A stretch of 64,000 nucleotides of DNA from Candidatus Aegiribacteria sp. MLS_C (lineage in GTDB: Bacteria; Fermentibacterota; Fermentibacteria; Fermentibacterales; JCC-6). Shown piece by piece: positions 1,667 through 11,012 of the stretch. The notes under the pieces are model-generated. The model was given only the letters and a program-made list of their open reading frames with translations. It was not told the origin of the DNA and did no database searches. Each line of letters opens with the position of its first letter. Position 1 is the stretch's first letter. The stretch spans positions 134,618 through 198,617 of the forward strand of contig LQBI01000031.1 in the NCBI GenBank assembly GCA_002030045.1, written 5' to 3'. Both the position numbers and the translations under genes were made by a program.

Positions 1667-1902
1667 AATCCGTTTTCCTTTCCTGAACAGGCATTTACTA
1701 TGTTCGATCCGGTCAGGCGAAACAAGACTCCGGCAGCAGCAGCAATGGGGGACAATTGCAGTTCTTGACACGTTTCTGGAAACAGTCGATATTTACCTCC
1801 GTAGCCAGGACTGACAGGGAATTGCCGGTCCGGGAACCCGAAGGCGTTGCTGCTGTTCCTTTTCATAGTCATCCTGTATGTTATTGCTCGAAAGGAGAAG
1901 AC

Positions 1903-2901
1903 ATGAGATTCACTCTTGTATTACTTTCCATTCTGGCGGCTGTGGCCCTCTCGGCCGAGAGGACCGTACTCTGGGAGTACTTCACCCAGACCGGTTGACC
2001 CACCTGCTACAGCAGCTGGTCAGCTGTTAAGAGTGCCATCAACCCCTTCCTCACCTCCGGCGATGTAGCTCCACTCTACATCTTCTACAACGGTCCCGCC
2101 GCATGTGCCTTCAACTCGACCAGGTTCAGCTTCTACGGCGTCGGGGCGACACCCACGGTCAAGATCGACGGGCTCGCGTCCGGCTATGCGCCCTCGGGAT
2201 ACGCGACAGCCATCAACAACAGGCTGGCGGTCCCCTCCTACGTGGACATCGACGTTACAATGGTGGGCGATGCCTCCGGCGGCACCGCGTACATCAGTGT
2301 CACAGCCGAGGAGGAGCCCTCCCAGACCTATCCTATCAAGGTCTGGTGCGTGATCACCGAGGACCACGACATTGCCGCCGGAACAGGCTGGGGCGGGTAC
2401 ACGAACATGGAGATGATGTGGCTTCCCCGTGCATGGCCACTGGGGACCCAGGGCCAGGCGCTGAACTTCACGGGCCCGTACCCGCAGACCCTGAGCGTGG
2501 CCGGGGACTACACCCTCGACCCCTCACAGCACCAGTTCGACAACCTGAACGTGACCACCTTCGTCCAGTACACATCCGGCACAAGGGAGTGTCTCAACGC
2601 CGACCATATGGACATGCCCGACACGGCTACCGGAGTCTACGGCGACGAGGAGGGTTACTCACCAGTCACGCTCCTCACCGCAGGGCCCAACCCTTCCAAC
2701 GGGGCCGTCACCATCAGCTGCGGGCTTCCCGCAGGAGTGGCCGGGACGGTAAGGGTATTCGATATAACCGGCAGGATCGTGAATTCCTTCCCCGCCGGGG
2801 ATGCCGTCGAAACCCAGCTGGCGGAAAGCGGCGTCTACTTCGTGCACCTGAGCACTACCGGAGGGGAATCGGTCAGGAGACAGATCACCGTAATAAGGTA
2901 G
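1903..2901 (+). CDS. Secreted thioredoxin-like selenoprotein (UxxC) with C-terminal sorting-like domain
   Basis: Read through the in-frame TGA at 1996-1998 (codon 32), this is one 332-residue protein. It has an AAAGGAG ribosome site 5 nt before the ATG and a Sec signal peptide, MRFTLVLLSILAAVALS, followed by AERTVLWEYFTQTG-U-PTC. The segment matches the start of Omp28/thioredoxin-like exported proteins (VLxEEFTGxWCxxC), where the first redox cysteine falls exactly on the TGA, giving U-P-T-C. A SECIS-like hairpin follows. The middle is a beta-rich domain. The last 75 residues (NPSNG, VRVFDITGRIV, GVYFVHLS) form the FlgD/T9SS-like domain also seen at 41.6 and 49 kb. A role as a periplasmic or surface thiol oxidoreductase is inferred. 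The alternative is a nonsense mutation or sequencing error splitting the gene, but the UxxC position and hairpin argue against that. Confidence 0.8.
1996..2028 (+). promoter_or_regulatory. UGA selenocysteine codon with bacterial SECIS-like hairpin
   Basis: The TGA is at 1996-1998. Downstream, AGCAGCT (2011-2017) pairs with AGCTGTT (2022-2028): seven base pairs including one G-U, closing a GGTC tetraloop at 2018-2021. The loop lies 20 nt after the TGA. Escherichia coli fdhF carries GGUC in its SECIS apical loop at nearly the same distance, and SelB recognises a guanine-uracil pair there. Stem, loop and spacing therefore all fit the established bacterial rule. All codons downstream stay in frame with the secreted protein. 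Confidence 0.75.
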
Positions 2902-3407: not shown

Positions 3408-4013
3408 TCAGGTGTTGCAGAAATGCTTATCCAGGTAGTAGGCCAGAAGCCTCCTGGCCTCCTCCTCGCACTCTCCGCAGGAGGTGCCCACCTTGGTCTT
3501 CTCCTGCAGCTGGTAGTAGTTCCTGGCTCCCTCAAGGACCGCGTGCTCTATCTCGTCCTCGGTGATGTTGAGGCACTGGCAGACCACCCGTGAGCCGGTG
3601 TCGTGGACCCTGTCCTCCATACCGATGGAGCGGTAGTAGTTGTCTATAGCCCTGCGCAGGGCCTTGTCGCCGAGGACGGAGCAGTGTACCTTGTTCTCGG
3701 GGAGCCCGCCGAGCTGCTCTATGATGTCCCTGTTGGAGATTCTGTATGCGTCCTCGAGTTTCATGCCCTTCACCATCTCGGAGAGGACGGATGTGCTGGC
3801 TATGGCGCTGGCGCACCCGAAGGTCTTCCACCGGCAGTCCGTGATGGTCATCGATTCGGGGTCTATCTTCAGGTAGAAGGTCATCTCGTCGCCGCACTTG
3901 ATGTTGCCGGTGGTTCCCTTCGCGTCGTACTCGAAGCCCTCCTCGTCGTACATGATGTTCTTCGGGTCCATGAAGTGCTCCTTGACCCGGTCCGAGTACA
4001 GCCAGTCGCTCAT
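3408..4013 (-). CDS. nifU: NifU-type Fe-S scaffold with C-terminal Bfd-like [2Fe-2S] domain
   Basis: 201 residues. Residues 1-130 are an IscU-type scaffold with the three cluster cysteines visible at Cys40 (KCGD, with Asp42), Cys67 (FGCASA) and Cys111 (VHCSVL). Residues 143-190 are a bacterioferritin-associated-ferredoxin-like domain with Cys145, Cys147, Cys179 and Cys182 (CQC...CGEC), as in the central domain of nitrogen-fixation NifU. The C-terminal Nfu domain of classical NifU is missing. The protein would assemble [2Fe-2S] or [4Fe-4S] clusters from sulfur supplied by the cysteine desulfurase encoded just upstream, whose stop codon overlaps this start by 4 nt (ATGA). No nif genes lie nearby, so housekeeping Fe-S assembly is more likely than nitrogen fixation. 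Confidence 0.92.
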   Translation of the reverse strand: MSDWLYSDRVKEHFMDPKNIMYDEEGFEYDAKGTTGNIKCGDEMTFYLKIDPESMTITDCRWKTFGCASAIASTSVLSEMVKGMKLEDAYRISNRDIIEQLGGLPENKVHCSVLGDKALRRAIDNYYRSIGMEDRVHDTGSRVVCQCLNITEDEIEHAVLEGARNYYQLQEKTKVGTSCGECEEEARRLLAYYLDKHFCNT

Positions 4014-5194
4014 CTGCAGCTCCCGCCCCAGGCAGTGGACATCTTCCTCAGTCTCCGCACCACGCCCGGAAGGACCTCGAGCACCCTCTCGACGTCGTCC
4101 TCCGTTGTGGACCTCCCCATGCTGATGCGAAGGGATCCGTGACTGTACTCAACGGGAAGACCCATCTCGAGGAGCACATGGGAAGGGTCAAGGGACCCCG
4201 ACGCGCATGCGGAACCGGTGGAGACCTCTATGCCCTCCATGTCGAGATACAGCAGCATGGCCTCCCCCTCGACGCCGGCGAAGGAGACGTTCAGCGTCGA
4301 ATGTACGCAGTGTTCCGGGAAGCTGTTGAAGTGAATGTCGTCTATCCTTTCAATTATTCCTTCCCTGAGCCTGCGGTTGAGGGCCTCAAGCTTCCTTCCC
4401 TCGGCTTCCATCTCCAGTCCCCTCATTTCCGCAGCGATTCCGAATCCCGTTATTCCCAGGGTGTTCTCGGTGCCCGCCCGTCGTCCCATTTCCTGGTGGC
4501 CGCCTCGGATCAGGGGACAGAAGGGCGTGCCCCTCCTTACATAAAGAGCGCCCACCCCCTTGGGTCCGTATATCTTGTGGGCCGAGACCGTCAGGAAGTC
4601 CACTTCCAGTTCTCTAACGTCAACCGGTATCTTGCCCACGGCCTGTACGGCATCGGTGTGGAAGAGGGCTCCCGCCCTGTGGGCGAGGTCCAACGCCGTA
4701 CGAACATCCTGTATCGCACCTGTCTCGTTGTTCACCATCATGATGGAAACCAGCGACGTATCCCTGGCGAGGGCCTCCTCGAGGTCCTCCATCCTGAGCA
4801 GGCCACGTTCATCGACGCCTATCCTGGCCACGCTTGCGCCGCGGTTCTCAAGACATTTGGAGGTCTCGAGGATACACGGGTGCTCGATGGTGGAAGTGAC
4901 CAGCTGGCTCTCGACCGAAGGATGGATGCCGCACTGCGCCCCGGTGCAGCCGAGGATTGACAGGACGGTGTTGTTGGCCTCGGAGCCGCTGCCCACGAAC
5001 ATCATATCCCCGGGTTCCGCGTTTATCAGCGCCGCCACCCTGCCCCTTGCCTCCTCAAGCAGAGCCCTGGCCTCCCTGCCGTCGGCGTGGAGGCTGGATG
5101 GATTCCCGTAGAGGTCCATGGAGTCTATGATCGACTTCCTGACCTCGGGATGCAGTGGAGTCGTCGCGTTATGGTCCAGGTAGATCCTCTTCAT
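4010..5194 (-). CDS. nifS: Cysteine desulfurase NifS/IscS
   Basis: 394 residues, a PLP-dependent class V aminotransferase-fold enzyme that takes sulfur from L-cysteine and passes it to the NifU scaffold. Visible motifs are the N-terminal YLDHNATTPLHP, HPCILE with the conserved histidine region, NNETGAIQD, the PLP lysine in SAHKIYGPKG, and the mobile-loop catalytic cysteine in STGSACASGS. The ATG at 5194 was preferred because GGAGAG lies 5 nt upstream; an ATG 9 codons further upstream has no such site. It is the first gene of a nifS-nifU pair with a 4-nt overlap. No IscR-type regulator gene is seen upstream. Confidence 0.94.
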   Translation of the reverse strand: MKRIYLDHNATTPLHPEVRKSIIDSMDLYGNPSSLHADGREARALLEEARGRVAALINAEPGDMMFVGSGSEANNTVLSILGCTGAQCGIHPSVESQLVTSTIEHPCILETSKCLENRGASVARIGVDERGLLRMEDLEEALARDTSLVSIMMVNNETGAIQDVRTALDLAHRAGALFHTDAVQAVGKIPVDVRELEVDFLTVSAHKIYGPKGVGALYVRRGTPFCPLIRGGHQEMGRRAGTENTLGITGFGIAAEMRGLEMEAEGRKLEALNRRLREGIIERIDDIHFNSFPEHCVHSTLNVSFAGVEGEAMLLYLDMEGIEVSTGSACASGSLDPSHVLLEMGLPVEYSHGSLRISMGRSTTEDDVERVLEVLPGVVRRLRKMSTAWGGSCR

Positions 5195-5363
5195 CTTCTC
5201 TCCAGGTTCATGAAACCTCATATCCGTCGACGCCCCGTGATTATGTGCCTGCCCAACGTGAAATGCAACCGCTCATAGCCGGTTCCCCTCCATTGTCCCC
5301 GGAGCGGACCTTGGACATGTTTTCCTTCTTGGCGGTAAAAAAAAGGAAGGAACGGGGTCTCCC

Positions 5364-8708: not shown

Positions 8709-11012
8709 CTAGTGCTGTTCCGAGAACAGCTCGTTCATGGCAGTAAGCAGCTGGGCCATTGAATAGGGTTTCAGGAGGAACCTCGAGTTTTCCCTGAACC
8801 TTTCCAGTGCGTCGCTGCTCTTCTCCCTGCTGTACCCGCTGCAGAAGATGATGGGCATTTCAGGTCGGACCTCCCTTATCTTTTCGGCGGCCATGAAACC
8901 ATTCATGACGGGCATCACCGCGTCCATTATCATGAGGTCCACGCTGTCCGGAGAATCGGTGACAAGCAGGACAGCCTCCTCACCGTCCGCTGCCGTTATC
9001 ACCTCGTGGCCGGCCTCCGAGAGCACTTCGCAGGCAAGGTTCCTCACATCGTCGTCGTCCTCCGCTATGATGATGGTGAGGGATACGGCCTCCTCGACCT
9101 CGTACTCCTGAGGTATCTCCTCTATCTCTATGTTGCGGTCGGCCGCCGGCAGGTAGACCCTGAACACGGAACCCTCGCCGGGAACGCTTTCGGCCCTTAT
9201 GAGACCGTCATGCTGCGTGACGATGCCGTATACCGTGGAGAGGCCCAGACCCGTGCCGGCGGTTATACCCTTGGTACTGAAGAAGGGCTCGAAGATCCTG
9301 GAAAGGGTGTCCTCGTCCATACCATGACCGGTGTCGGCGATGGATACCATTCCGTAGTAACCCGGCCTGGCCGATGGATTGGTCTCACAGAACTCGCTGT
9401 CCAGGTAGACCCTGTCCGTCCGTACCGTTATCCTGCCGCCTTCGGGCATCGCATCCCTTGCATTGAGGCATATATTGAGCAGGACCTGTCCCGCCATGGA
9501 ATGATCGGCGTTAACGTACACGGGATCCGTACAGGTCTCGAGAATGATGCCGATATTCTCGCCTATGATCCTCTTCAGCATTTTGAGGTGTTCCGAGATC
9601 ACCTGGTTGAGATCCATTATACTTGTCACGATGACCTGGTTCCTGCTGAACAGCAGCAGCTGATGGACCAGTTCTTCGGCCCTCTCCCCGGCCTTCGATA
9701 TCTGACGGACCATCTCCCTCACCGGGTGGTCCTCCTCGAGAGCGGCATCCGCCAGTTCCGTATAGCCGTTTATGACCTGCAGGATGTTGTTGAAGTCGTG
9801 TGCCACGCCCCCCGCCAGCTGGCCCACAGCATCCATCTTCTGGGACTGCCTGAACTGGTTCTCAAGCTGAATGCGCTCGGACAGGTCCCTCACAAGGACG
9901 ATGTAGGATCTTTCGCCATCGAAGCGGATCTCAGAGACGTTCAGTTCGACCGGGATCTTCTCCCCGTCCTTGCGCAGTATCTCCACGTCGTATATCGGAG
10001 GGACTTTCTTGCCGGCTATCCTGTTGGTCATGTTCCTCAGCACCAGTGCCTCGTGATCGTGGGAAACGAAGTTCAGGACGCTGTTGCCCAGCAGTTCCCC
10101 GCGGTCGTAGCCCGTCAGGGTCGTCGCTGTGCGGTTGACGAAGACGATGATACCGTCGCGGTGGATCACGATGGCGTCGTTGCTGTTTTCCACCAGGGTA
10201 CGGTACTTCTCCTCGCTCTCTCTCAGGGACTCGATTGTCTGCACGGTGTCCGTAATGTCCGTGCATACTAGCTGCAGGACCGGATGATGGCCGTGTTCGG
10301 ACACAAGTATGCTGACCATCGCCCGGACGGTTACTCCATCGGCGTTCAGCATGCTGTACCGGGCAGTTCCGGATGGGTCGCCGGAACCATCCAGCATGCG
10401 CATTCTTCCGGTCAGGTCATTCCAGGATGGTTCAGAGAAGACCAGTCTTACTTCCGATGCCTCCATCGAGGTCAGCACGGAGGTCTCCAGGCCCAGCATC
10501 CTCCCCGCGGATTCGCTGGCGTACTCGATGACGGGAGGGTCTCCGCCGATGATCATGGTGCCGTGGTCGGAGTCCTCCATGATACGCCTGAACAGATCCG
10601 CATCCCTGACCAGGTCCTCGGGATACTCCACGGGGTTTTCCAGCAGGTGTCCCGAGACCATGACGCACATCACAATGCCGTCCTCGTCCCTGATCACCCT
10701 GTTGAGGAAGGTCGCCGGGATGCTCCCGCCGTCGGCGAGTATGGAGTACTCCTGCCGGAATGTCCCGGATCCCCTTTCGGTTAAGAGGTCGCTGAATGCC
10801 CTGGAAGCTGCGTCCCCTGATTCCGGGTCCACAAGGTCGGAGAACCAGTTCATGCCGACTATCTCCTCAGCGCTCCGGCCCAGTATGTCGCACATCTGCC
10901 GGTTGACGGTGATTATCTTGCCGCTGCGCGAGGTGAAGAGCAGAATGCTGTCGGCTTCCCTCAGTATGTCCTCCCCGGACATGTATTTCAGGACTGTACT
11001 GGAATCGCTCAT
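8709..11012 (-). CDS. PAS-domain hybrid sensor histidine kinase with receiver
   Basis: 767 residues with no membrane segment, so a cytoplasmic sensor. The domains in order are three PAS-type sensor domains (about residues 10-385; motifs ILLFTSRSGKIITVNRQMCDILG and NDAIVIHRDGIIVFVNRTATTL), a HisKA domain with the phosphoaccepting histidine in GGVAHDFNNILQ (near residue 405), a HATPase domain (NICLNARDAMPEGG, DTGHGMDEDTL, GTGLGLSTVYG), and a C-terminal receiver with the phosphoacceptor Asp in LMIMDAVMPVMNG (near 694). The ATG at 11012 follows AGGAGTGGGAA; an upstream in-frame start lacks such a site. No output regulator lies next to it. It is paralogous in architecture to the kinase at 16195. 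Confidence 0.92.
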   Translation of the reverse strand: MSDSSTVLKYMSGEDILREADSILLFTSRSGKIITVNRQMCDILGRSAEEIVGMNWFSDLVDPESGDAASRAFSDLLTERGSGTFRQEYSILADGGSIPATFLNRVIRDEDGIVMCVMVSGHLLENPVEYPEDLVRDADLFRRIMEDSDHGTMIIGGDPPVIEYASESAGRMLGLETSVLTSMEASEVRLVFSEPSWNDLTGRMRMLDGSGDPSGTARYSMLNADGVTVRAMVSILVSEHGHHPVLQLVCTDITDTVQTIESLRESEEKYRTLVENSNDAIVIHRDGIIVFVNRTATTLTGYDRGELLGNSVLNFVSHDHEALVLRNMTNRIAGKKVPPIYDVEILRKDGEKIPVELNVSEIRFDGERSYIVLVRDLSERIQLENQFRQSQKMDAVGQLAGGVAHDFNNILQVINGYTELADAALEEDHPVREMVRQISKAGERAEELVHQLLLFSRNQVIVTSIMDLNQVISEHLKMLKRIIGENIGIILETCTDPVYVNADHSMAGQVLLNICLNARDAMPEGGRITVRTDRVYLDSEFCETNPSARPGYYGMVSIADTGHGMDEDTLSRIFEPFFSTKGITAGTGLGLSTVYGIVTQHDGLIRAESVPGEGSVFRVYLPAADRNIEIEEIPQEYEVEEAVSLTIIIAEDDDDVRNLACEVLSEAGHEVITAADGEEAVLLVTDSPDSVDLMIMDAVMPVMNGFMAAEKIREVRPEMPIIFCSGYSREKSSDALERFRENSRFLLKPYSMAQLLTAMNELFSEQH

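Follow-up and report, generated by a model that had tools for sequence, protein, structure and literature searches.

A predicted selenoprotein with a thioredoxin-like UxxC site and a type IX sorting domain in Fermentibacterota

The window analysed here, a 64,000-nucleotide stretch of contig LQBI01000031.1 from Candidatus Aegiribacteria sp. MLS_C, carries a gene whose product is, judged from its sequence and that of its homologues, almost certainly a selenoprotein, and very probably one with a thioredoxin-like redox site. Taken together with its predicted structure and its sorting domain, the protein is most likely a surface-anchored selenothioredoxin. The reading frame (1903–2901, plus strand) runs from an ATG at 1903 to a TAG at 2899–2901, with a single TGA at 1996–1998 as its sole interruption. 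With this TGA read as selenocysteine (Sec, U), the product is 332 residues long and contains the motif U32-P-T-C35, in agreement with the original prediction, which had placed an in-frame TGA giving U-P-T-C at this position. The parts of the gene are listed in Table 1. The signal peptide is probably cleaved after A18, a residue that is nearly invariant in subgroup A1 of the family, and the nearly invariant P84 occupies the place of the thioredoxin cis-proline.

Table 1 Features of the selenoprotein gene in the window (positions are those of the window).
Feature	Position	Strand	Basis
Shine-Dalgarno-like AAAGGAG, 5 nt 5' of the ATG	1891–1897	+	Sequence
Predicted selenoprotein gene, 332 codons and TAG stop, one internal TGA	1903–2901	+	Frame, homologues
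Predicted signal peptide, residues 1–18 (MRFTLVLLSILAAVALSA)	1903–1956	+	Read by eye from the sequence; helix 2–15 in the model
Thioredoxin-like domain, about residues 19–108	1957–2226	+	AlphaFold pLDDT above 90; HBP35 match
TGA, predicted Sec32, first residue of UxxC	1996–1998	+	TGA/TGC/TGT exchange among homologues
TGC, Cys35, resolving cysteine, invariant across homologues	2005–2007	+	Homologue alignment
SECIS hairpin, stem 2011–2017 / 2022–2028, loop GGTC 2018–2021	2011–2028	+	Pair conservation
Omp28/HBP35-type beta-sandwich, about residues 109–244	2227–2634	+	Model compared with 5y1a and 2r2c
T9SS type A C-terminal sorting domain, residues 257–332 (HMM match 262–328)	2671–2898	+	TIGR04183, PF18962

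A search of 36 Fermentibacteraceae genomes gave matches in all 36, in some of them only to the sorting tail, and after removal of duplicates 70 distinct sequences spanned the TGA site. The codon at the site was TGA in 39 of these, all from Fermentibacterota and including the window gene, and TGC or TGT in the 31 more distant ones; no other codon occurred among the 70. Two of the TGA genes (L113 and L114) belong to another family in the order. Alignment at the UxxC position, the first check put forward with the original prediction, thus pairs Sec with the Cys of homologues. The nearest homologue was 76% identical across all 332 residues, spanning the TGA, with a dN/dS of 0.26 upstream of this codon and 0.12 downstream. 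A Cys paralogue (L084) is encoded on contig C9 of the window's own genome, so the fold can do without Sec.

Three other explanations of the TGA were weighed against selenocysteine. Under the standard code the frame ends at 1998, which would leave a pseudogene or a gene for a 31-residue peptide. We consider such a true stop highly improbable, given that the TGA is followed by an intact frame in 39 distinct genes, that the downstream dN/dS is as low as stated, that Sec and Cys exchange at the site, and that the SECIS hairpin is held beyond codon constraint (see below). A sequencing or assembly error, conceivable in a window taken from a draft genome, is refuted by the identical position of the TGA in some 25 separately assembled genomes, which reduces its probability to a negligible level. 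The same negligible level applies to an altered genetic code in which TGA is sense (tables 4 or 25): it would explain an in-frame TGA, but TGA terminates 29 of the 39 large open reading frames in the window, indicating a normal code with site-specific recoding, and the genome has the Sec machinery along with a hairpin specific to Sec. The window contains four further TGA frames with UxxC or CxxU motifs, at 10285 and 50627 on the plus strand and at 4050 and 60941 on the minus strand; all four were judged to be chance occurrences, and all but the one at 10285 overlap larger open reading frames.

The stem of the SECIS hairpin (AGCAGCT/AGCTGTT) has seven pairs, one of them G-U. The original prediction had described a seven-pair hairpin with a GGTC loop 20 nt after the TGA; the hairpin and its loop were recovered, and the distance has to be corrected, as the stem begins 12 nt past the TGA and about 20 nt is the distance to the loop. 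The pairs were tested across homologues in a fixed register, with amino acids kept constant and codons redrawn according to each gene's own usage in 300 trials. In the 39 Sec genes, 250 of 273 possible pairs were observed, compared with a maximum of 164 in the 300 synonymous reshufflings. On average 6.41 of the seven pairs were kept per Sec gene, against 3.55 expected from synonymous recoding, and all seven were intact in 28 of the 39 genes. The Cys genes had 82 of 217 pairs, which is chance level (2.65 per gene vs 2.69 expected). Double-sided pair changes were seen among the Sec genes at pair 6 (C-G to T-A) and pair 7 (T-A to G-C).

Folding of single sequences was less favourable. The original prediction had looked to a fold of the region 3' of the TGA for confirmation; RNAfold, applied to the window sequence, did not choose the hairpin as the minimum-energy structure but a competing UGACC/GGUCA pairing, and z-scores were weak. 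Minimum free energy z-scores relative to synonymous recoding averaged −0.9 in the Sec genes vs +0.15 in the Cys genes, a modest difference. The hairpin is therefore deemed real on account of pair conservation far beyond chance across homologues, not of single-sequence folding. An Rfam search of the window gave no matches. Five distant Sec homologues (L091, L041, L093, L095 and L116) lack a seven-pair hairpin in the common register; in these, a different fold with a loop of the AGG(T/C) type, for example TCGC-AGGT-GCGG, may serve instead.

All four genes named for a genome search in the original prediction (selA, selB, selC and selD) were present in the genome. On contig C32, selB (C32:23764–25629) is adjacent to selA (C32:25662–26990), selD is located at C32:128345 and has one in-frame TGA of its own, and the tRNA-Sec, with anticodon TCA, is located at C32:210586. 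The window gene lies on contig C31 and is thus not a neighbour of these genes. Within the phylum, selA was present in 24 of 24 good-quality genomes. Two genomes carry a paralogue of the selenoprotein beside sel genes: in G025 the gene order is selenoprotein paralogue, selD, selA, selB (L125, 299–6149), and in G028 the paralogue adjoins selD and selA (L126, 2–3376), selD having been identified in both loci from sequence and position. These paralogues belong to an Omp28-type subfamily (about 42% identical) in genus g3. Their location suggests that the family is linked to selenium metabolism.

The history of the site was examined on a midpoint-rooted tree of the 63 rows with 300 residues or more. 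Two changes of the Sec/Cys state sufficed on this tree, compared with 21 when labels were shuffled. One TGC gene (L094, G021:C28:15056–16027) falls within the main Sec clade and has no hairpin. It is probably a recent Sec-to-Cys reversion, its genome still having selA. The combination named at the outset as speaking against Sec, close relatives with TGC in genomes without selAB, was thus not seen: L094, from the selA-bearing G021, is the lone Cys gene of the main Sec clade. A second, distant Sec clade (L103, L104, L113 and L114), with the motif EFFTWNGU or EEFTWDGU, comprises genes from two families of the order and clusters with Cys genes on the midpoint-rooted tree. This clade has its own well-kept hairpin (GGCAGTG-CGGT/AGGT-CACTGTC) and possibly represents a separate Sec origin.

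An AlphaFold2 model computed on a 53-sequence family alignment had a mean pLDDT of 90.7. Its best structural match was HBP35 of Porphyromonas gingivalis (5y1a), with a Z-score of 23.1 and an rmsd of 2.9 over 221 residues for model residues 16–244, and the family profile places the CxxC of HBP35 opposite the UxxC. Further matches were obtained to the DUF1223 protein 2axo of Agrobacterium (Z 17.3 over 199 residues), to the Omp28 domain 2r2c (Z 11.9, residues 66–244), and, for residues 253–332, to C-terminal domains of the type IX secretion system (T9SS), among them the one from PorZ (5m11, Z 9.7). The C-terminal sorting-like domain of the original prediction was borne out, the window protein scoring 34.4 bits with TIGR04183 (cut-off 23) and 31.9 bits with PF18962 (cut-off 27); TIGR04183 matched all 53 aligned family members. 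PF11551 and NF033782, the profiles of the Omp28 outer membrane lipoprotein, were each matched by 36 of the 53 members (best value for PF11551, 9.7e-9), and PF06764 (DUF1223) was weakly matched by 13; the window protein itself gave no match to PF11551. The proposed likeness to Omp28 holds for family profiles and the predicted structure, and was not demonstrable for the window sequence taken singly, which reached 13.5 bits with NF045500, a model named 'Omp28-related selenoprotein' in NCBIfam.

NF045500 is the closest described selenoprotein model. Among the 119 families in an inventory of prokaryotic selenoproteins from 2026, it appears as 'hypothetical protein GOS_C', with a UxxC motif (Table 1 of PMC13188914). 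The first description of GOS_C came from metagenomes of the ocean, where it was presented as a thioredoxin-like protein with no assigned function (PMC2398784). The present family shares with it an Omp28-related thioredoxin-like fold, a UxxC motif with Sec first, and Cys homologues, and 33 of the 53 family members match the model at E-values up to 0.1 (best 1.3e-10). It differs in score: the window protein reaches 13.5 bits where the cut-off is 200, and none of the proteins in 42 Fermentibacterota genomes exceeded this value. HBP35, a 35 kDa hemin-binding protein, has the same layout of signal peptide, CxxC thioredoxin domain, Omp28-like beta-sandwich and T9SS tail; it has two Cys where the window protein has Sec and Cys, the two are 14% identical, and hemin binding is a feature of HBP35. 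The thioredoxin activity of HBP35 has been measured and was abolished by mutation of its two Cys (PMC2907840), and the protein is exported to the surface via the Por system and glycosylated there (PMC3120885). The Omp28 lipoprotein, linked to the family by profile and structural matches, differs from the window protein, which has a T9SS sorting domain in place of a lipoprotein anchor. The DUF1223 proteins share the structural match, but no Sec or sorting domain has been reported for them.

The suggestion that this layout was new to the literature therefore needs to be narrowed, GOS_C/NF045500 being a described UxxC selenoprotein and the layout being known from the Cys protein HBP35. On sequence grounds, the family is genuine and forms a new subfamily within an already known kind of selenoprotein, related to NF045500 and outside it by the curated rule, and we do not claim it as the first of its layout. 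In the open literature, we found no paper joining a selenoprotein with Omp28, with Fermentibacter or with Fermentibacterota, and no type IX-secreted selenoprotein; the sole co-mention of 'selenoprotein' and 'type IX secretion' was in an unrelated paper on rabbit diet. A plasmid collection gave no match. Because the NF045500 cut-off is not reached, the subfamily is missed by current models, and annotations of Fermentibacterota genomes probably show its genes as truncated.

The genome also encodes candidate components for export. SprA, with its neighbours, scored 403 bits against a cut-off of 200, and two long or full-length PorU-like proteins scored 416 and 397 bits against a model cut-off of 420. 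The genes of these two PorU-like sortases lie nearly in tandem (G000:C1:223501–231118). In the mechanism that we propose, SelB with Sec-tRNA-Sec would bind the hairpin just past the UGA, and Sec would be inserted as residue 32. The signal peptide would then direct the protein across the inner membrane, and the C-terminal sorting domain would hand it to the type IX secretion system for transport across the outer membrane; on its far side the tail would be cleaved by a PorU-like sortase and the protein anchored to the cell surface. In this position, like the two Cys of HBP35, Sec32 and Cys35 would act on substrates at the surface or outside the cell, reducing or exchanging their disulfides or similar bonds of oxidised sulfur or selenium. 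From the elements described above we infer Sec incorporation, the surface location and the thiol-redox direction.

By analogy with HBP35, a thiol-disulfide role at the surface appears fairly likely. The main competing view accepts a genuine selenoprotein and assigns it to surface handling of selenium or metals (e.g. binding of selenite, mercury or haem), not to general disulfide exchange. The paralogue subfamily that adjoins selD and selA(-selB) speaks for this view, as does the binding of hemin by HBP35 (PMC2907840). We nevertheless consider it unlikely, since a thioredoxin fold with a UxxC motif and, in the cis-Pro position, a nearly invariant proline fits a thiol oxidoreductase, and since the window gene (C31) lies away from the sel genes (C32). 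Extending the preferred thiol-disulfide reading to an entire family of T9SS-exported, surface-tethered extracellular selenothioredoxins in Fermentibacterota, with several paralogues, one of them beside selD and selA(-selB), is a step whose probability we regard as evenly balanced. If this is true, the sel-adjacent paralogue would link the family with extracellular metabolism of selenium or thiols. A thioredoxin site exposed at the surface would be an uncommon place, away from the cytoplasm, for a residue as costly as Sec. Two testable questions are raised, namely whether type IX systems carry selenoproteins, and which extracellular disulfide or other oxidised substrate makes Sec necessary for an anaerobic fermenter.

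Two neighbouring genes were also noted. Divergent from the selenoprotein gene, a frame on the minus strand (428–1771) encodes a 447-residue protein with no Pfam match, which is kept beside the selenoprotein gene in several genomes of the genus at 57–86% identity. Cysteine desulfurases are able to supply selenium besides sulfur. The stretch just downstream of the selenoprotein gene, also on the minus strand (3408–5221), encodes a NifU-like protein carrying a BFD-like [2Fe-2S] domain and then a class-V aminotransferase of the cysteine desulfurase type, and it likewise adjoins the selenoprotein gene in several of the genomes in this genus.
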